The notes under the pieces were generated by a model. That model saw nothing but the letters and a program-made list of their open reading frames with translations. It made no database searches and was not told the origin of the DNA. A stretch of DNA of 64,000 bases from the NCBI RefSeq assembly GCF_000384415.1, contig NZ_ARVU01000001.1, positions 2,170,001-2,234,000 of the forward strand, in the 5' to 3' direction. Source of the stretch: Cycloclasticus pugetii PS-1 (GTDB lineage Bacteria; Pseudomonadota; Gammaproteobacteria; Methylococcales; Cycloclasticaceae). Shown here one piece after another: positions 951 to 11,101 of the stretch (the first letter of the stretch is position 1; each line of letters opens with the position of its first letter). A program made the position numbers and the translations under genes.

Positions 951-2516
951 TTAAACCCCTAACGTTTTGCTCAACTGCTCATCCTTAACGGTCATTTTCT
1001 TCTTAAATAACTTAAAGCCAAAAAAACCAGCCACAGCTAACACTATATTAACAAGCAATACGACCCCGCTGGTTAAGGCCCAATTTGATGTTTCCTCTAC
1101 TGACTCAACAACAGGTTCAAGCTCACCCTCTCCGCCCGCTACAATACTGGACAAATCTGGACATTGAAAAATCTGCTGCTCTGTGAGCCCCTCTTCAGGC
1201 AGCACAATACCGGCTTGCTCAAGTACTTTATCGAACACCGGGTTGATTTCCACATAATTAACTTTAGGCTTTTGTTTGACATAAAAAGACAGCGTTTCTA
1301 TCCGCTCAAAGGTATTTCCAGCAGCCCTAACTATTAGCTCATAAGGGCCGACCTTAAGGTTTTTTCCAATATCAACAAAAAAATACCCGCCGTTGATCAT
1401 ATCTAACTGCATTGGAAGCACTTCTTTGTCCCCTCGTTGATTTATAATCTCGACCGTCGCATCGATAACATCTAACAGGTTGCTATTTTTCAGAAGCTTA
1501 CCTTTGTCTGTCATGAGCATTCTAATGCGTGTATCGGAACCCGAAAAAATCTCTTTTGGCATGTTTTCAACAGCCATTTGCAAATTCGTGGTGATGAAGA
1601 TTTCATTGTCTGGGTCAGCCGCTGCAATCAACCTCCACTCACCAGCCATTGGCTTAGTGACTGTCACAATGTCATATTTCTTTTCACGGTGCCAACTAAC
1701 ACCACTTCTATTACTGCTACGTCCAAAATCCATCCCCTCCGGGTCATCCAACTGCGTAGTACCAAAGCCTTTTTTTCTAAAAACAACTGCGGTGAATTGT
1801 CTTACGGTTTCATCAACTGTAAATGTATTCGCAATTAATGGGATACTATTTCTCTCAACCAAGCGTTTACTAACCCTCAGCAATGCTCGTTCTAGCTGTG
1901 CAGCTGTTTTGGCCACATCAAACCAACCGAGTGTTTCATTAGCCACTGTTTCTAAAAAAACAAGATCCGCATCATCAGAAAATCCAACCGTATGAACACT
2001 AACATCAACTTCCTTTAAACGCGCTACTTGGTAATTGAGTATTCGTTCTTTAGACGCCACATTATCTTTCATGAGTTTTCCTGACGTTACTTTTCCGTCG
2101 CTTAAAAGAACAATGTGCCGACGTGTATTCTTGTCTTTTTCTACCCAATCCAGCGAAGCCACCGCAAGCGCTTTTTCAATATCCCCTGTTTTATTAGATG
2201 ATTGAATTTTTCCTACATTCTTAAGAGCCTGCGTTTTCCACGAAATACCGGATTTACCCACTTTCATGATCTCTGTTGGCATCTCATCAAACATCCAAAT
2301 ACCAACGTTTGCATTATTCGGCAAGAGATTGATGAACAGTTTGAGCGCCGATATTCTATGGTTTTCTGGGTCACTTATTTTCATCCTCTCGGACACATCG
2401 ACCAAGACGCGAACTTCAATGGAATTATTTTTATTAAAATCTACGGCCTGAACAGATGTGACCATCAAGGCAAAAAGTAATAAACACGTTAGGGAAAAAT
2501 GCGTAATCTTTTTCAT
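951..2516 (-). CDS. Secreted von Willebrand factor A domain protein with C-terminal membrane anchor
   Basis: 521 residues. A signal peptide (about 1-24, ending VQA) precedes a vWA domain (about 32-220). The MIDAS loop reads DVSERM, where the classical form is DxSxS, so the final serine is replaced by methionine. LLSDG matches the later vWA strand. A beta-rich middle region follows (about 225-420), and the C-terminus has a hydrophobic span (about 480-503) with a KLFKKK stop-transfer. Most of the protein therefore faces the periplasm. It resembles the uncharacterised TIGR03503-type vWA proteins of gammaproteobacteria, but that link is from memory. The downstream acidic membrane protein is a plausible partner. 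Role unknown; metal binding may be weakened by the MIDAS change. Confidence 0.8.
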   Translation of the reverse strand: MKKITHFSLTCLLLFALMVTSVQAVDFNKNNSIEVRVLVDVSERMKISDPENHRISALKLFINLLPNNANVGIWMFDEMPTEIMKVGKSGISWKTQALKNVGKIQSSNKTGDIEKALAVASLDWVEKDKNTRRHIVLLSDGKVTSGKLMKDNVASKERILNYQVARLKEVDVSVHTVGFSDDADLVFLETVANETLGWFDVAKTAAQLERALLRVSKRLVERNSIPLIANTFTVDETVRQFTAVVFRKKGFGTTQLDDPEGMDFGRSSNRSGVSWHREKKYDIVTVTKPMAGEWRLIAAADPDNEIFITTNLQMAVENMPKEIFSGSDTRIRMLMTDKGKLLKNSNLLDVIDATVEIINQRGDKEVLPMQLDMINGGYFFVDIGKNLKVGPYELIVRAAGNTFERIETLSFYVKQKPKVNYVEINPVFDKVLEQAGIVLPEEGLTEQQIFQCPDLSSIVAGGEGELEPVVESVEETSNWALTSGVVLLVNIVLAVAGFFGFKLFKKKMTVKDEQLSKTLGV

Positions 2517-2707: not shown

Positions 2708-3883
2708 TTAGGCGCTACGTTCAGCTAAAACTGATACAGCAGGCAAGGCCTTACCCTCTAAAAATTCCAAGAAAGCACCGCCACCTGTTGATATATAAGA
2801 GACCTGATCGGCAATGTCGTACTTATCCACTGCCGCTAACGTGTCGCCGCCACCTGCAATTGAAAAACCATCACTGTCTGCAATTGCCTGTGATAATACC
2901 TTTGTTCCACCTGCAAATTGGTCAAACTCGAACACGCCCAAAGGTCCATTCCAAACAATTGTTCCGGCCGCTTTAACGATACCCGCATATTGGGCAGCTG
3001 TTTGAGGGCCAACATCTAGGATTAAGTCATCCTCTTCAACATCTTTGACTGATTTGACTGTCGCTTCTGCTGCTTCTGAAAATGTTTTACCGCAAACCAC
3101 ATCAACCGGAACCGGGATGCTCGCACCATTCTGCTCTGCTTTTAACATTAACGCTTTCGCCTCATCAATCAAGTCTGGCTCATACAACGACTTGCCAACC
3201 GAATAACCTTGAGCGGCAATAAAAGTATTCGCTATACCACCGCCAACAATAAGTTGATCAACCTTGTCTAACATCGAGTCCAGCACCGTCAATTTAGTCG
3301 ACACTTTTGCACCACCTACTATCGCCAGCATCGGCTGAGCCGGTTCAAATAGAGCCTGACCTAAAGCATCTAATTCAGCTGATAATAACGGACCTGCGCA
3401 TGCAATCGGTGCAAATTTGGCAACGCCATGTGTTGAGGCTTGTGCGCGGTGAGCCGTGCCGAACGCATCCATCACAAACACATCACATAGAGCGGCCATT
3501 TTTTTCGACAACACTTCGTCATCTGCTTTTTCACCAACATTGAAACGTACATTTTCACAAAGAATAATATCACCCGGCTGACCACTGACCCCATCCAACC
3601 AATCTTTTTCTAAACGCACCGGTTTTCCCAACAAGGTAGACAAATGCTCTGCCACTGGTTTCAAACTAAAGGTCTCATCATACTGCCCTTCAATTGGGCG
3701 CCCGATATGTGACATTAACATCACCACCGCACCTGCATTGTGCGCCTGTTGGATGGTTGGCAGACTAGCCCTAATACGCGCATCACTGGTTACTTTCCCT
3801 GCCTTAATAGGCACATTCAAATCTTCTCTGATCAGTACGCGTTTGCCAGATAAATTTATATCTTGCATCTTTATAATCGTCAT
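2708..3883 (-). CDS. pgk: Phosphoglycerate kinase
   Basis: 391 residues, the usual bacterial length (E. coli 387). It transfers phosphate between 1,3-bisphosphoglycerate and ADP in glycolysis and gluconeogenesis. Visible motifs are the N-terminal [11 protein letters not shown] (substrate aspartate/asparagine), MSHIGRP, the hinge [10 protein letters not shown] and the C-terminal GGGDT nucleotide loop. It follows the GAPDH-like gene by 19 bases and is the last gene of a tkt - GAPDH-like - pgk operon, with a hairpin after the stop. The fructose-bisphosphate aldolase gene that often follows pgk in gammaproteobacteria is absent here. Cytoplasmic and almost certainly essential. Confidence 0.97.
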
Positions 3884-3902: not shown

Positions 3903-4874
3903 TTAATTCGTCATCATCGCTTGCGCGGTGTCCAGCATTCGATTTGAAAAGCCCCACTCATTATCAAACCAGCCAACGACCTTAACGAGCCGACCTGCTG
4001 TCACCTTAGTTTGCGTAGCATCAAAAACACACGAAGCAGGATGAACGCTAAAGTCTGTTGACACTGCATTTTCCTCACTATAGCCAAGCGCCCCTTGCAG
4101 ACTAGCACTGGCTGCCTGCCGCATTCGCTCATTAACCTCAGCGACTGTTGTCTGATTTTTACTGCTAAAGGTCACATCCAGCATCGCTACATTGATAGTA
4201 GATAAGCGAATAGAAAGCCCATCTATTTTTCCTTTCATGTGCGGCAACACTAGGCCAATAGAGTTTGGTGAATTTGTTTTAGTTGGAATCATGGGTATTT
4301 GCTCAACCATTGACTCATGCCTATCATCGTAAGCATGTAAAGTTGTGCTTAAACCGTACTCAACGCCCATCGCAGCATCTAAAACACTTACCATGTGGGC
4401 TAAACAATTTAATGTGCAAGAGCCATTTGAAACGACTTTATGTTCTGCTTTTAGATCTGCCTGGTTTACACCGTACACTATCGTGGCATCAACCTTATCA
4501 TCTGATAGGGCAGAAATAAGGACTTTTTTAGCCCCTGCCAAAATATGCATATGGGCGGGTTCTGCTTGAGTAAATTGCCCTGTACACTCGAGCACTACAT
4601 CAATATTCAGCGATTTCCAAGGCAGTTTTACAGGGTTTGCCTGTGACGAATAATGCACATCCCTACCTGCAATCAGTAGGGTGTTCTTATCAGTAGACAG
4701 CTTTATGTTCAGCCCAGACAAATCATTTTTTACATGCTCGGCTACGGTGCTAAATGACTCAATGTCATTAATGGCTACCACCTGAATCTGCTCTTGACGG
4801 TTGGACGCATACAGTGCCTTGAGTACACTGCGCCCAATTCGACCAAACCCATTAATGGCTATACGAATACCCAT
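3903..4874 (-). CDS. Divergent GAPDH/erythrose-4-phosphate dehydrogenase family enzyme
   Basis: 323 residues, about 10-15 shorter than usual. The Rossmann motif INGFGRIGR (7-15), AIND (35-38, NAD preference), CTG (97-99), the catalytic cysteine in SNGSCTLNC (C153) and histidine H180 are present, so catalysis is plausible. Three family features are altered: the usual YDSxHGxF is replaced by KNDLSG near residue 50; the stretch after H180 (the S-loop with its arginine-rich DLRRARAA) is about a dozen residues short; and the phosphate-binding STGAAKAV reads KTNSPNSIG (199-207). Parts resemble E. coli Epd ([18 protein letters not shown]), and tkt-epd-pgk is a known gammaproteobacterial order. It could serve glycolysis (GAPDH) or pyridoxal-phosphate synthesis (Epd). 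Sequence alone does not decide. Confidence 0.85.
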
Positions 4875-4886
4875 GAGTTTAGAAAC

Positions 4887-6890
4887 TTATATTAAGTTCT
4901 TTGCTGCTTCGACTAACTTTTCCGCTGTGATACCAAAGTATTCAAACAATTCTTTAGCCGGAGCCGATTCACCAAAACGGTCTAAGCCAATCACCGCACC
5001 TTGCAAGCCCACGTATTTATACCAAAGGCTTGTTGACCCTGCTTCTATCGCTACCCTTGCGGTTACTGAGGCAGGCAATATAGATTCTTTATACGCCATA
5101 TCTTGTCTATCAAAAAGGTCTGTACACGGCATAGATAGTACGCGAACCTTAACGCCTTCTGCTGCTAATACGTCAGCAGCGGTTGTCGCTAATTCAACTT
5201 CAGACCCCGTAGCCATTAAAATAACCTGCGGCTCACCTTCACAATCTTTAAGGATATAACCCCCTTTTGAAATAGCCGCCACTTGGTCAGCTGTGCGTGG
5301 CTGGTGCTGTACGTTTTGACGGGTAAAAATTAGCGCTGACGGCGTGCTTTCACTTTCAACCGCATACTTCCATGCAACAGCAGATTCAACCGCATCACAC
5401 GGACGCCATACATCTAAGTTTGGAATTAACCGTAAACTTGATACATGCTCAACCGATTGGTGTGTTGGTCCGTCTTCACCCAACCCTATCGAGTCATGCG
5501 TGAAAACAAAAATATTTCGTAATTTCATCAATGCCGCCATACGCACAGCATTACGAGCATAATCAGAAAATGTTAAAAACGTTGCGCCATAAGGAATAAA
5601 GCCGCCATGTAATGCAATGCCATTTTGAATTGCGCTCATGCCAAATTCACGCACGCCGTAATGAAGATAGTTGCCGTTGGCATTCGTCCCATCAACATCC
5701 GTACACCCTGACCATTTAGTTAAATTAGAGCCAGTTAAATCAGCTGATCCCCCTAAAAGCTCGGGCAATAAAGGACCGTAACCATTAAGTGTGTTTAATG
5801 ATGCTTTACGTGAGGCAATGGTTTCACCTGCCTGCTGCGCTGCCTGCACAAATGCCTCTGATTTTTCTGCCCAATCAGCACTTAACTCACCCGATAAACG
5901 ACGCAATAGTTCATCAGCTAGGTCTGGGTATTCAGCCACATAAGCTTCTAATAACTCTTCCCATTGAGCTTCTGCTTGTTCACCTTTATCGTTTGCATCC
6001 CACGCATTCTTTACCTCAGCTGGAATTTCAAAGGCAGGCGCTGTCCAACCTAATGCTTTTCTGGTAGCGGCTATTTCTTCGGCACCCAATGGAGCGCCAT
6101 GTACATGATGCGTCCCTTCTTTATTAGGCGCACCAGAGCCAATCACTGTTTTACAGCAAATTAACGTGGGTTTATTCGTTTCTTTTTGTGCTTGCTCAAT
6201 CGCCTGCTTGATGTCATTAGCATTATGCCCATCTACATCACGAACTACTTGCCAACCATAGGCTTCAAAACGTGCTGGCGTATCATCGGTAAACCAACCC
6301 TCTACATCGCCATCAATCGAGATACCGTTATCATCCCAAAACGCTATTAATTTGCCTAAGCCAAGCGTACCCGCATAAGAACATGCTTCATGCGAAATGC
6401 CCTCCATCAAGCAACCATCCCCCATAAAGGTATACGTGTAATGATCAACCACCTTGAAGTTAGGTTGATTAAATTGTGCAGCTAATACCTTTTCAGCTAA
6501 AGCCATACCCACCGCGTTGCTAATACCTTGACCTAAAGGACCTGTCGTTGTTTCTACCCCTGGCGCATATCCGTATTCTGGGTGACCCGGTGTTTTAGAG
6601 TGCAGCTGACGAAAATTACGAATGTCTTCAATATCTAAATCGTAACCCGACAAATGCAATAACGAATATAACAACATCGAGCCATGACCGTTCGATAATA
6701 CGAAGCGATCTCTATTCACCCAGTGTGGATTGGCTGGGTTATGCGACAAAAAGTCATTCCATAGTACTTCTGCAATATCTGCCATTCCCATCGGTGCACC
6801 GGGGTGTCCTGAGTTGGCTTGTTGGACAGCATCCATACTAAGGACACGAATAGCATTCGCTAGTGTTTGACGAGAAGGTCTTGGGCTCAT
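4887..6890 (-). CDS. tkt: Transketolase
   Basis: 667 residues, matching E. coli TktA (663). Thiamine-diphosphate enzyme that moves two-carbon units between sugar phosphates in the pentose phosphate and Calvin-type pathways. Visible: the N-terminal [10 protein letters not shown], the ThDP/Mg motif beginning GDGCLMEG, and the C-terminal pyrimidine-domain segment [16 protein letters not shown]. First gene of the operon, 12 bases ahead of the GAPDH-like gene, so it would supply erythrose-4-phosphate and glyceraldehyde-3-phosphate, the two possible substrates of that enzyme. Its promoter should lie in 6891-6999, but no clear -35/-10 pair stands out. Confidence 0.97.
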
Positions 6891-7354: not shown

Positions 7355-8710
7355 ATGGGTAAAGTGGACGTTAGCCAACTGGTCGACAATACAACTGGTC
7401 GACAAAGTAGATCTATTTTTCATGAACAAGACATCTATGAGCAAGAACAAGAAAGAATCTTTGGCAAATGCTGGTTATTTTTAGCGCACGAAAGCCAAAT
7501 TCCTGATCCAGGTGACTATTTTAGGACCTTTATGGGTGAAGATGAGGTCCTCGTTATTCGCCAAAAAGACCAATCAGTCAAAGCCTTCCTTAACACCTGC
7601 ACCCATCGCGGCAACCGTGTTTGTAAGGCAGATAAAGGTAATGCCAAGCAGTTTACTTGTAGCTACCATGGGTGGAGCTTTGCCGCAGATGGCACGCTTC
7701 AATCTGTCCCGCTGGAGGAGGATGCTTATTACAATGAACTCGATAAATCCAAATTTGGCTTACACCCTGTTTGCAAGGTAGATAGCTATAAAGGATTAAT
7801 TTTTGGTAACTTTGACCCAGAATCACCGACTTTGGATGATTATTTGGGTGATATGAAATGGTACTTAGATGTTTGGCTCGACGCCATGCCAGAAGGCACC
7901 GAGTTAATCGGCTCAACGCAAAAAGTTGAATACCCTGTCAACTGGAAACTACCTGTCGAAAACGCCTGCGGCGATGGCTATCATATTGGCTGGGCTCATG
8001 CAGGTGTTATGACTGTTGCTACCTCAATGGACATTGAAAGCCTTTCTCTAGGCAATACTAAAGTAGATAGCTCAACTGCTATGGCTGGTGGTGGCATGAA
8101 TGGTCACTCGATTATTTCATCTCTTGATGGGCAATCAGGTTATGCGTTCTACCCTGATCCAAGCCTACCTGTTAGCTACCTTGAAGAAAACCGAGAGACT
8201 GTTATTTCACGCCTTGGCGAAACGCGTGGTAAGCAATTTTGGGGCTCGCAAATCAACATGACTATTTTCCCCAATGTGCAAATGTTACCGGGGCTTAATT
8301 GGTTCCGTGTTTATCATCCAAAAGGTCCAGGAAAAATGGAAATGTGGACGTGGGCGATGGTTGATAAAGAGATGTCAGACGAGTTAAAACAAACTGTGCT
8401 CGACAATGTTTGCCGAACATTTGGCGCCGCCGGCATGTTTGATAACGATGATGGTGAAAACTTTGCCGCCTGTACTTCACAAAACAGAGGCCTACAAACC
8501 CGCCAAAAAGATGTATACACCAATATGGGCTTAGGCAAAGAGTACTCACACCCTGAAATGCCTGGCGTCGTTAGTGACGGCCTTGTTGGTGAACAAAACC
8601 AACGATATTTCTACCGTCGCTGGCAAGAAATGATGGCAGCAAAAGATTGGAGCGCCGTTCCAAACTACAACAGCCTAGAAGAAGCAAATGCAACAAGAGG
8701 ACAAAACTAA
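7355..8710 (+). CDS. Aromatic-ring-hydroxylating dioxygenase, alpha (large) subunit
   Basis: 451 residues, typical for the family. The N-terminal Rieske domain carries the [2Fe-2S] ligands C82, H84, C102 and H105 (CTHRGNRVC and CSYHGW). The catalytic domain has the mononuclear iron motif GDGYHIGWAH (D207, H210, H215), and the expected third ligand, an aspartate, lies within FDNDDGENF (362-370). This subunit inserts both atoms of O2 into an aromatic ring to give cis-dihydrodiols. ATG follows AAGGGGA at good spacing. It overlaps the beta-subunit start by one base. Neither ferredoxin nor reductase lies nearby, so electrons must come from elsewhere in the genome. Substrate cannot be told; polycyclic, benzoate-like or salicylate-like compounds are all possible. 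Confidence 0.95.
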   Translation: MGKVDVSQLVDNTTGRQSRSIFHEQDIYEQEQERIFGKCWLFLAHESQIPDPGDYFRTFMGEDEVLVIRQKDQSVKAFLNTCTHRGNRVCKADKGNAKQFTCSYHGWSFAADGTLQSVPLEEDAYYNELDKSKFGLHPVCKVDSYKGLIFGNFDPESPTLDDYLGDMKWYLDVWLDAMPEGTELIGSTQKVEYPVNWKLPVENACGDGYHIGWAHAGVMTVATSMDIESLSLGNTKVDSSTAMAGGGMNGHSIISSLDGQSGYAFYPDPSLPVSYLEENRETVISRLGETRGKQFWGSQINMTIFPNVQMLPGLNWFRVYHPKGPGKMEMWTWAMVDKEMSDELKQTVLDNVCRTFGAAGMFDNDDGENFAACTSQNRGLQTRQKDVYTNMGLGKEYSHPEMPGVVSDGLVGEQNQRYFYRRWQEMMAAKDWSAVPNYNSLEEANATRGQN

Positions 8711-9243
8711 TGAGTCAACCATCTCCTTTTAAAAATGCTGTTGATGCGGACACCTACCAAACCTTCCAAACACTTCTGTATAAAGAAGCGCGTCTTCTTG
8801 ACCATGAAGAGTATGACCAATGGCTAGCGATGCTAACGGACGATATTTATTACTATATGCCCGTACCCGCTCGCTATTTACGTGAAGAAAAAAAGCAGGC
8901 TATCAAACCTCTCGACGCAAATATTTTTAATGACTATAAAAAACAATTAGAGCTACGTATTGCTCGCTTTGCGACGAATCTCGTTTGGTCTGAGAACCCT
9001 CAAAACATGATAAACCACGCAGTGTCTAATATAGAGGTGTTCCCTACAGAGGTTGAGGGTGAATGGAACGTTCTCTCTGTTGTTACCGTTCTTAGAAGCC
9101 GACTGGATGGCGTAGAAAAGCGCATGGTGGTATCGCGCGATGATATTTGGCGCCTTGAAGACAATAGCCTCAAGCTGGCTAAAAGAAGCATGTTGTTTAA
9201 TCACACTGTCGTCCCAGATAGTAACCTTAACTTCTTCTTCTAA
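8710..9243 (+). CDS. Aromatic-ring-hydroxylating dioxygenase, beta (small) subunit
   Basis: 177 residues from the ATG at 8710, which overlaps the alpha-subunit stop as TAATG. That coupling and the family's usual length favour this start over an in-frame ATG 63 bases upstream. The fold is the NTF2-like cone of ring-hydroxylase beta subunits. Typical features are the YxxLLYKEARLLD-like N-terminus and WLAMLTDDIYYYMPVP. It has a structural role in the alpha3beta3 hexamer and sometimes influences substrate choice. The C-terminus ends NLNFFF, as in many homologues. A strong terminator follows 15 bases after the stop, so the transcription unit holds just the two subunits. Confidence 0.93.
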   Translation: MSQPSPFKNAVDADTYQTFQTLLYKEARLLDHEEYDQWLAMLTDDIYYYMPVPARYLREEKKQAIKPLDANIFNDYKKQLELRIARFATNLVWSENPQNMINHAVSNIEVFPTEVEGEWNVLSVVTVLRSRLDGVEKRMVVSRDDIWRLEDNSLKLAKRSMLFNHTVVPDSNLNFFF

Positions 9244-9357: not shown

Positions 9358-9789
9358 TTAATCCCAAGGGCCTTTCGAGTCTTTTGGAATAAAGCCCAGT
9401 GCTTTAAGAAAAGGCACAAAATCGACTGCATCCCACTCTTCAATATTCAATCCATCTTTTATTCGCATAATATGAATAGCGTCTAGGTCAACATATTCAT
9501 TTGTCGGTGCAACACCATTAAACTCGCCAACATGTTTCATGCGTAGTTTCATTCTGCTAACCACCTTGTCACCTTCAGCAATTTGATCATAAAAGTGCCG
9601 ATCAAAATCTGTCATTGACTCTTGCAGCTTCATATTCATAATCATATGTGCATCTTTATCCAACGGTTCTTTTGCCATCGGCAAGTGGAACAAATGATCT
9701 GGGTGCAGTAAATCTCTCATATCATCAAAGCGTTTGCTGTCCATCGCTGCAAAAAACTCCCTAACAATTTTTTTATTAACCTCAGACAT
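9358..9789 (-). CDS. SnoaL-like / NTF2-fold protein
   Basis: 143 residues. The start VREFFAAMDSKRFDDMRDLLHPDHLFHLP is typical of SnoaL-type NTF2-like proteins: two helices, then the first strand with histidines facing a pocket. A central GDKVVSRMKLRMKHVGEFNG and later AIHIMRIKDGLNIEEWDAVD match the strands that close the cone. Such proteins include polyketide cyclases, ester-cyclase-like enzymes and many of unknown function. It is convergent with the dioxygenase and shares its terminator, so a link to aromatic metabolism is possible but not shown. GAGAGAG before the ATG is a good ribosome site. Confidence 0.8.
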   Translation of the reverse strand: MSEVNKKIVREFFAAMDSKRFDDMRDLLHPDHLFHLPMAKEPLDKDAHMIMNMKLQESMTDFDRHFYDQIAEGDKVVSRMKLRMKHVGEFNGVAPTNEYVDLDAIHIMRIKDGLNIEEWDAVDFVPFLKALGFIPKDSKGPWD

Positions 9790-9852
9790 TCTCTCTCCTT
9801 ATTTTCTTATTATTGATTCATTAGCATAAAGTAATAATAGCGTTGGGAGGGG

Positions 9853-10215
9853 TTATTTATTTAATAAGTCTGCCAGCCCTGCAAAGGGGTGTTGCCTTAA
9901 CTCTTCTTTAGTTTTATCTTCAGTTAATGAGCCATATTGATGATCAAGTTGCCTTGAATGCTCATTGTCATGGCAGTAAATGCATAACAACTCCCAATTA
10001 CTCCCGTCCTCAGGGTTATTATCATGATCGTGATCTCGATGGTGTACCGTCAACTCATGCAGCGTCTGTTGAGAAAACTCTCTTGCGCAACGACCACAAA
10101 TCCAAGGGTACATTTTTAACGCTTTCGCACGGTAACCAGTATCTCGTTGCTCACGATCTTTTCGAGCATTACTAACAACCTGATCCACTGTTTTACTCAA
10201 CTTATCTGTTGGCAT
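9853..10215 (-). CDS. yajD: YajD-type HNH endonuclease-domain protein
   Basis: 120 residues, similar in length to E. coli YajD (115). The N-terminus ARKDREQRDTGYRAKALKMYP is characteristic of the family. CGRC and CIYCHDNEH provide the four zinc cysteines, and HHRDHDHDNNPEDGSNWELL holds the HNH catalytic core. The family is widespread in proteobacteria and its physiological substrate is not known. The ATG is preceded by GAGG. Nothing suggests an intein, intron or phage context. Confidence 0.85.
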   Translation of the reverse strand: MPTDKLSKTVDQVVSNARKDREQRDTGYRAKALKMYPWICGRCAREFSQQTLHELTVHHRDHDHDNNPEDGSNWELLCIYCHDNEHSRQLDHQYGSLTEDKTKEELRQHPFAGLADLLNK

Positions 10216-10309
10216 TTATGCCTCCTCAAAAGTTCTCAACAACCGATACCAACACTGTCTTATTGAAAATACTGTTATCACTTTAATTGGTGCTTGAGTA
10301 TCAGCAAAC

Positions 10310-11101
10310 TCACCGAGGCATTCTCGCCCAAATCCAGCCTTCTTTTTCTGCTAATGCTCGTTCCTGCTTGGTTCGCGGCCCCTCACTTTCAGCACGAATA
10401 AAGTGATAACCTGCTAGCACACAAACCACTGCATCCAAAATATCATCATCGGCGATAACTAATTCTTTATCCATTTCTGATACATTCATTAACTGACTAA
10501 GACCATCAAAAATCCAGCTTCGTTCTTTGCTGATTTCTTTCTTATAACTTGTTGCCGGAAGAAGCTGGCAAGATTTCAGAGTTACCGCAGGGTAAACCTC
10601 TATCGCACTAATAGGGTCAACTAGTTCAGCGGACCAAGCCAAAGGGATTGTCGTCCCTAACTGATCCGTTAACTCATCTATTAACATCAAGGCAGCATGC
10701 GCTGTTCTAGCAATACGGTCAGCACCCACATCTAAAGATTGCTTCCCTGCTTTTTCTTTTATAAAAAAGTCTGTTCTGCGGCGAAACATCTGGTGGGCAT
10801 CGGTACTCAGCGAAGCGCCCGCCATATGGCCGATTAACTCTTCGCCCAGTTTTACTGGCCAGCCTAAGGGGGAATCAAGTGCTATTAAGGTCTTAACATT
10901 GCCTTGTTCTTTTATCCAATTGGACACGACATTAGCAACAGATTCGTTTTTAGCTACCTTTCTAGCCTTCTCTATGCTTAATATGCCGTTCGAAACAGAG
11001 CCTAACGCAAGACCCACTTTATTTGATTGCGTCGCGCAATCTATACCAATGATTGATACAGAATTATTAGTAGCCGCTAAATGCTCAGAACCTCTCGTCA
11101 C
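10310..11101 (-). CDS. DUF429 domain protein (predicted nuclease fold)
   Basis: 263 residues. The beta-strand SIIGIDCATQSNKVGLALG near residue 15 and the later IALDSPLGWP match DUF429, a family with an RNase H-like fold and conserved acidic residues but no established function. The C-terminal AVVCVLAGYHF is also typical of the family. The start is GTG, with AGAGG about 6 bases upstream; this site decides the start. It is on the same strand as the YajD-like gene with a 94-base gap, so co-transcription is uncertain. Confidence 0.75.
   Translation of the reverse strand: MTRGSEHLAATNNSVSIIGIDCATQSNKVGLALGSVSNGILSIEKARKVAKNESVANVVSNWIKEQGNVKTLIALDSPLGWPVKLGEELIGHMAGASLSTDAHQMFRRRTDFFIKEKAGKQSLDVGADRIARTAHAALMLIDELTDQLGTTIPLAWSAELVDPISAIEVYPAVTLKSCQLLPATSYKKEISKERSWIFDGLSQLMNVSEMDKELVIADDDILDAVVCVLAGYHFIRAESEGPRTKQERALAEKEGWIWARMPR

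Follow-up and report, generated by a model that had tools for sequence, protein, structure and literature searches.

The window, i.e. the whole stretch of 64,000 nucleotides that was analysed, belongs to the genome of Cycloclasticus pugetii PS-1, a single contig of 2,383,924 bases. We saw that the genes tkt, gap and pgk follow one another in this order, as the original prediction had it (Table 1); all three are on the minus strand, which the prediction had left unspecified. The open reading frame of gap starts with ATG and runs from 4874 down to 3903; the plus strand across the same positions is interrupted by stops. Both domains of the family were present in the product above the Pfam gathering scores (Gp_dh_N: 93.1, gathering score 31.7; Gp_dh_C: 115.6, gathering score 24.4). 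We characterized the gene as the type I GAPDH-like gene of a tkt-gap-pgk operon.

Table 1. Genes of the operon and features of the gap gene (positions in the window)
Feature	Position	Strand	Basis
tkt, transketolase; upstream operon gene, 12 bp gap	4887..6890	-	TIGR00232, 999.1 bits vs cut-off 682.25
gap, GAPDH-family gene with shortened S-loop, 323 aa	3903..4874	-	ORF; Pfam Gp_dh_N and Gp_dh_C above cut-off; NCBIfam
pgk, phosphoglycerate kinase; downstream operon gene, 19 bp gap	2708..3883	-	Pfam PGK, 481.8 bits
S-loop stretch, catalytic His180 to Pro197, 16 residues between vs 27-28	4284..4334	-	alignment; residues 180-196
Loop in place of STGAAKAVxx, codons 199-208	4251..4280	-	alignment; coordinates from residue numbers
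Codon of catalytic Cys153	4416..4418	-	alignment; invariant in 36-row alignment

Some other genes of the window may be mentioned. A VWA-domain protein is encoded downstream of pgk (951-2516, minus strand); its TIGR03503 score, 93.1 bits, is far under the cut-off of 305.6. The alpha (Rieske) and beta subunits of a ring-hydroxylating dioxygenase are encoded on the plus strand (7355-8710 and 8716-9243, respectively), which fits a degrader of aromatic hydrocarbons; SnoaL-like, HNH and DUF429 proteins are encoded consecutively at 9358-11101 (minus strand).

Residues changed and retained in the gap protein

Few enzymes are as conserved as GAPDH, whose S-loop bears inter-subunit and coenzyme contacts. 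Residues are numbered here as in E. coli GapA, with the catalytic Cys as 149; the numbers of the window protein are given separately. Alignment showed that the YDSxHGxF motif is absent (NDLSG is found in place of YDSTHG of GapA) and that STGAAKAV is replaced by KTNSPNSI. Only 16 residues separate His176 (window His180) from Pro205 (window Pro197) in the window protein, compared with 28 in GapA and 27 in Epd, a deficit of 12 and 11 residues, respectively. On the other hand, the catalytic residues and the NAD pocket are retained: Cys149 (window 153), His176 (window 180), Asn313 (window 305) and the INGFGRIGR motif. The original prediction, which had named the two lost motifs, about a dozen missing S-loop residues and the intact catalytic and NAD-binding parts, was thus borne out by the alignment. 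The window protein also has Asp at position 179 (Thr in GapA), Leu at 151 (instead of Thr) and Asn at 209 (instead of Gly); Ser148, Cys149, Thr150, His176, Thr208, Arg231 and Asn313 are conserved in it as well as in all 11 operon copies found in the genus.

According to passages of PMC8615399, the Ps site of E. coli GAPDH is made of Thr180, Thr182 and Arg232, and the 'new Pi' site of Ser149, Thr151 and Thr209 (with Met counted in both cases); the S-loop is linked there to NAD entry. The Ps-site set is incomplete in the window protein, with Asp at 179, Thr/Asp181 inside the deletion and Arg231 retained; the Pi-site set is complete, the side chains of Ser148, Thr150 and Thr208 being intact. The claim that substrate-phosphate contacts are altered could therefore be kept in part: it holds for the loop, for Thr179 and for the deleted position 181, but not for Arg231 and the Pi-site residues.

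An AlphaFold model of the window protein had mean pLDDT 91.6 and pTM 0.90, with pLDDT below 50 at residues 186-189; its best PDB matches were type I GAPDHs, followed by Epd of E. coli. In a control model of an ordinary betaproteobacterial GAPDH from the same rows (L039), S-loop residues 190-195 also had pLDDT below 50. Low model confidence was dropped as evidence on the S-loop, and, because of the same control, the models say nothing on loop order or on the tetramer.

A variant of one genus: full, shortened and absent copies

In an alignment of 86 rows we counted 27-28 S-loop residues in 83 rows and 34 in one; the other rows, with 16 and 22 residues, were the Cycloclasticus records L036 and L037, the closest named relatives of the operon gap (65 and 62%, respectively). 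Each of the four solved structures aligned to the window protein has the extra loop residues. The genus consists of marine bacteria that degrade oil. Among 18 of its genomes, the operon gap was full-length, with a 27-residue loop, in four (G003, G005, G009, G014); it was shortened, with a loop of 16-22 residues, in seven (G000, G001, G004, G006, G012, G015, G017); and it was absent in the remaining seven (G002, G007, G008, G010, G011, G013, G016). In a class-wide search of 369 genomes the matches listed were screened by eye for short ones, and nine loci from among the shortest and three from among the best were taken; no shortened S-loop was found among these 12 sampled loci, all of which have 27 residues. 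As the shortening recurs in seven genomes with open frames, a sequencing artefact or frameshift was excluded. No account of a Cycloclasticus GAPDH or of a shortened S-loop was recognised in titles and abstract openings of the open-access literature. The S-loop-shortened GAPDH is a genuine variant, limited to one genus among the rows and loci compared.

The short copies share more than the loop length. Position 179 is Asp or Asn in all seven of them and Thr in all four full copies (Met in E. coli Epd); position 209 is Lys or Arg in the four full copies and Lys in E. coli Epd. The YDSxHG motif was eroded in different ways among the short copies.

In the genomes with no gap the distance from the end of tkt to pgk is 19-42 bp; no gap match was found between the two genes in any of the seven, and the junction is visible in each, including the four genomes that are only 73-83% complete. 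Presence of gap is likely the older state, since tkt-gap-pgk is found in two genomes of another family of the same order (G023 and G029). A species tree of tkt and pgk had support too poor for use alone; instead we used 12 proteins, namely tkt, pgk, a second, long GAPDH (see below) and nine proteins around pdxJ. On this tree presence and absence of gap take a minimum of four changes, and forcing the seven gap-absent genomes together made the tree 217.9 log units worse (p-AU 2.6e-5). With a single grouping rejected, absence is not one event on this tree; support for its deep branches is weak, and genes may have been exchanged between lineages. In the outgroup-rooted tree the full-loop lineages were basal, with bootstraps there of only 26-58, for which reason we call the order of events full, short, lost no more than likely; in the unrooted tree the four full-loop genomes were grouped at 92/96. 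No pattern was seen by eye in the genus genomes between loss of gap and the second gap gene or PdxJ. As a separate observation, G003 (L134/L137) and G009 are 77% identical in Pgk, 91% in tkt and 85% in gap, suggestive of a mixed bin or of exchange in the draft genome G003.

The short copies change fast in comparison with their operon neighbours. Median values of the protein distance in gap, divided by the mean of those in pgk and tkt, were 3.54 for 21 short-short pairs (range 2.23-5.01) and 1.34 for six full-full pairs (0.89-1.76); mean distances to five GAPDH outgroups were 0.83-0.97 for short and 0.59-0.71 for full copies. By the Nei-Gojobori method, dN/dS in the short pair G001-G017 was 0.105 for gap, 0.055 for pgk and 0.032 for tkt; in the full pair G005-G014 the values were 0.037, 0.039 and 0.045, respectively, and in the full pair G009-G003 0.065 for gap and 0.036 for tkt (pgk was not computable). 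Three further short pairs gave 0.108-0.128 for gap, each with dS >2, and for G000-G015 the gap value was not computable; the short-pair range of 0.105-0.128 thus comes from four of five pairs. In the one unsaturated short pair the dN/dS of gap was two to three times that of the operon neighbours. Values for distant pairs were set aside, as dS was undefined in 4 of 21 comparisons, absurd in one and >2 in several.

All seven short copies have open frames (322-331 codons), and 133 of 323 columns are invariant among them, catalytic residues included; Q78, S176, L179 and P203 are invariant in the seven short rows and occur in none of 14 comparison rows. As judged from sequence comparison, the short copies appear to be still held as proteins by selection, though a low dN/dS says little about function where dS is saturated, as it is (>2) in three of the four pairs.

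Family assignment, other GAPDH genes and the vitamin B6 route

The window protein scored below the cut-off of every NCBIfam model considered. For GAPDH-I (TIGR01534) it had 288.2 bits versus the curated equivalog cut-off of 367.2; for Epd, 300.8 bits versus 530.55 (TIGR01532) and 315.7 bits versus 539 (PRK13535), the latter nevertheless being its top NCBIfam score. The full-loop sister from G009 passed GAPDH-I with 389.8 bits and scored higher for Epd, 420.3 bits, but under the Epd cut-off; two betaproteobacterial proteins, L038 and L039, had 434.8 and 429.3 bits for GAPDH-I. Assignment to the ArsJ-associated GAPDH (NF033735) failed at 236.2 bits versus 450, the neighbours being tkt and pgk rather than arsJ, and assignment to the long GAPDH (NF006139) failed at 138.3 bits versus 431, the window protein having 323 aa.

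With type I GAPDHs (TIGR01534; of the betaproteobacterial/methanotroph kind, PDB 3gnq, 9pg6, 1obf) the window protein shares the fold (Foldseek TM 0.92-0.94, 46-49% identity), the catalytic Cys and His, Asn313, Arg231, Ser148/Thr150/Thr208 and the site between tkt and pgk; it differs in the absence of 11-12 S-loop residues and of YDSxHG, in the changes Thr179 to Asp, Gly209 to Asn and Thr151 to Leu, and in its sub-cut-off score. With Epd (TIGR01532, PRK13535; PDB 2x5j, 2xf8) it has in common the superfamily, the top NCBIfam score and a residue other than Gly at position 209, as in E. coli Epd; also, the E. coli order epd-pgk resembles the gap-pgk order here. It is set apart from Epd by both failed cut-offs, by the position outside the Epd clade in free trees, by the 27-residue loop of Epd and by the lack of PdxB (PF11890) in the genus. 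The full-loop operon copies (G003, G005, G009, G014) share with it the operon, the clade and the altered 209-214 loop; however, their S-loop, YDSxHG and Thr179 are intact, and their pace of change is about that of pgk and tkt.

Two trees were built, one with two long outgroup rows and another with E. coli GapA in their place. In both, the 11 Cycloclasticus rows formed one clade (100/99-100/100), with the short copies together (100/100), and the Epd clade of 14 rows, including E. coli Epd (100/100), contained no Cycloclasticus rows. When Cycloclasticus and the Epd clade were held together, log-likelihood was 7.34 lower (p-AU 0.141). The operon gap thus appears to be outside the Epd clade; both a sister position to Epd and nearness to other type I GAPDHs are possible, and, as the sister position was not rejected, the wording 'GapA-type, not Epd, by descent' was softened. 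A plain Epd was set aside on account of the two failed cut-offs, the placement outside the clade and the lack of PdxB (PF11890). The choice among GAPDH, Epd or an enzyme of another aldehyde, which the original prediction had left open, could be narrowed by this placement and by the absence of PdxB (PF11890), but not closed, given the best NCBIfam score to an Epd model and the p-AU value.

PdxJ is present in 18 of 18 genus genomes (in the window's genome, pdxJ is at C1:1115822-1116520). A search of the window's genome, the one examined for PdxS, gave no match, and PdxB, as detected by PF11890, was found in none of the 18, with E. coli and Bacteroides ihuae positive among 14 controls. The presence of PdxJ in all genomes along with this lack of PdxB (PF11890) leaves the vitamin B6 route, as it is known, apparently incomplete in the genus. 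Passages of PMC9997740 state that many organisms possessing PdxJ lack Epd and PdxB/PdxR, and that PdxR can stand in for PdxB. Since seven genomes with PdxJ have no operon gap, this gene is not the sole source of the erythrose-4-phosphate (E4P) step in the genus.

A search for a second gap gene, proposed along with the original prediction, revealed two further GAPDH-family genes in the same genome. One codes for the long GAPDH (NF006139/PRK08289; C1:561156-562169, 481 aa, 788.9 bits versus a cut-off of 431), which shares the GAPDH catalytic module and differs by an N-terminal extension, a canonical S-loop and TGAAKAV. It is present with no stops in all 18 genus genomes, the other 17 copies being 86-94% identical to the one of the window's genome; no other GAPDH-family match was found in G016, a genome of 98% completeness. 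The long GAPDH of pseudomonads has a gluconeogenic function. The other gene (L002, C1:1410993-1411982) codes for the ArsJ-associated GAPDH (NF033735, 574.4 bits versus a cut-off of 450) and lies beside arsJ (NF033734, 607.4 bits versus 400), a known arsenate-export pair; the protein is of the same GAPDH family but, unlike the window protein, has an S-loop of canonical length. On contig C3 of G004 we also observed four matches to the GAPDH family, of which two have 33-36% identity.

Role of the operon gap

The explanation that we favour, at about even odds (probability ∼0.5), is that the operon gap is a GAPDH that no longer has the central role and has become, through remodelling, an accessory and dispensable dehydrogenase linked to NAD. 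It is supported by the three GAPDH-family genes of the genome, the constant presence of an intact long GAPDH, the loss of the operon copy in seven genomes, the fast change of the short copies at low dN/dS, the catalytic residues retained in all 11 operon copies, and the residues at 179 and at the four positions peculiar to the short copies. The long GAPDH would have taken over the central triose-phosphate step, and the operon copy would have been freed as a result; its role would be accessory, because relatives live without it. NAD would be bound in the retained Rossmann pocket, Cys153 would attack the aldehyde with His180 as the base, and the thioacyl formed on Cys153 would then react with phosphate or water. 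Since Thr179 is missing and the S-loop is shorter, Arg223 would be left to grip the substrate phosphate, and the contribution of the neighbour subunit to the NAD site would be smaller. We expect that the shortening of the S-loop loosens both the inter-subunit NAD contact and the phosphate pocket, and thus leads to poor turnover of glyceraldehyde-3-phosphate (G3P) and to a different substrate range. E4P would be the first candidate substrate, because type I GAPDHs oxidise it slowly as a side reaction; for B. subtilis GapA, a passage in PMC12445079 gives an efficiency with E4P >200-fold lower than with G3P. Several observations count against remodelling: the variability of the loop among the seven short copies (16-22 residues) looks more like lost constraint than like a new fold, the repeated loss means that the function of the operon gap is not needed, the top NCBIfam score is to an Epd model rather than to GAPDH-I, and shared ancestry with Epd is compatible with the likelihood test.

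Loop variability and repeated loss bear also on decay, which we estimate to be about half as likely as remodelling into an accessory dehydrogenase. With the flux carried by the long GAPDH, selection on the operon copy would have weakened; the gene would still be translated, do little and be heading for loss. The faster change of the gap protein in comparison with pgk and tkt, the varied loop lengths, the separate erosion of YDSxHG in each short copy and the absence of the gene in 7 of 18 genomes, with at least four changes on the 12-protein tree, are all consistent with it; however, every short copy has kept an open frame, dN/dS is about 0.1 rather than near 1, and the invariant columns include the catalytic residues.

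It is unlikely that the enzyme is an E4P dehydrogenase that supplies the synthesis of vitamin B6, whether convergent with Epd or its sister. PRK13535 gives the top score for the window protein and likewise for the full-loop sister, Lys or Arg at position 209 recalls E. coli Epd, PdxJ is universal in the genus with PdxS not found in the window's genome, and a grouping with the Epd clade is tolerated by the likelihood test; on the other hand, both Epd cut-offs were missed, free trees place the gene outside the Epd clade, E. coli Epd has Met at position 179 where the short copies have Asp or Asn, PdxB (PF11890) is lacking and seven genomes have PdxJ with no operon gap. Less probable still is an ordinary phosphorylating GAPDH that tolerates the shortened S-loop with little effect. 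Such an enzyme would agree with the retained Ser148, Thr150, Thr208, Arg231, Cys149, His176 and Asn313, and with a confident model of predicted GAPDH fold whose best PDB matches are named GAPDH; yet the GAPDH-I cut-off, passed by the full-loop sister, was missed, Thr179 was lost, the loop has 27-28 residues in the other compared rows bar the one of 34, and relatives dispense with the gene. Moonlighting is known for GAPDH, and one could think of a product that has ceased to be an enzyme and serves in binding or regulation instead; we consider it very improbable, as the catalytic residues are conserved in all 11 operon copies.

One could speculate, though we regard it as doubtful, that the short-loop proteins are a distinct Cycloclasticus enzyme for another aldehyde, one that no longer forms a tetramer through the S-loop or grips the phosphate of G3P and that has kept only its thioacyl chemistry and the cluster for inorganic phosphate. 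If so, the S-loop, long held essential for cross-subunit binding of NAD, can be lost in nature. With gap full, shortened or absent at a single place in the operon, and with a second GAPDH that is always there, the genus offers a natural series for studying the purpose of the S-loop and the way in which an essential enzyme turns optional. For annotation it means that the operon gap of Cycloclasticus should not be taken for its glycolytic GAPDH.
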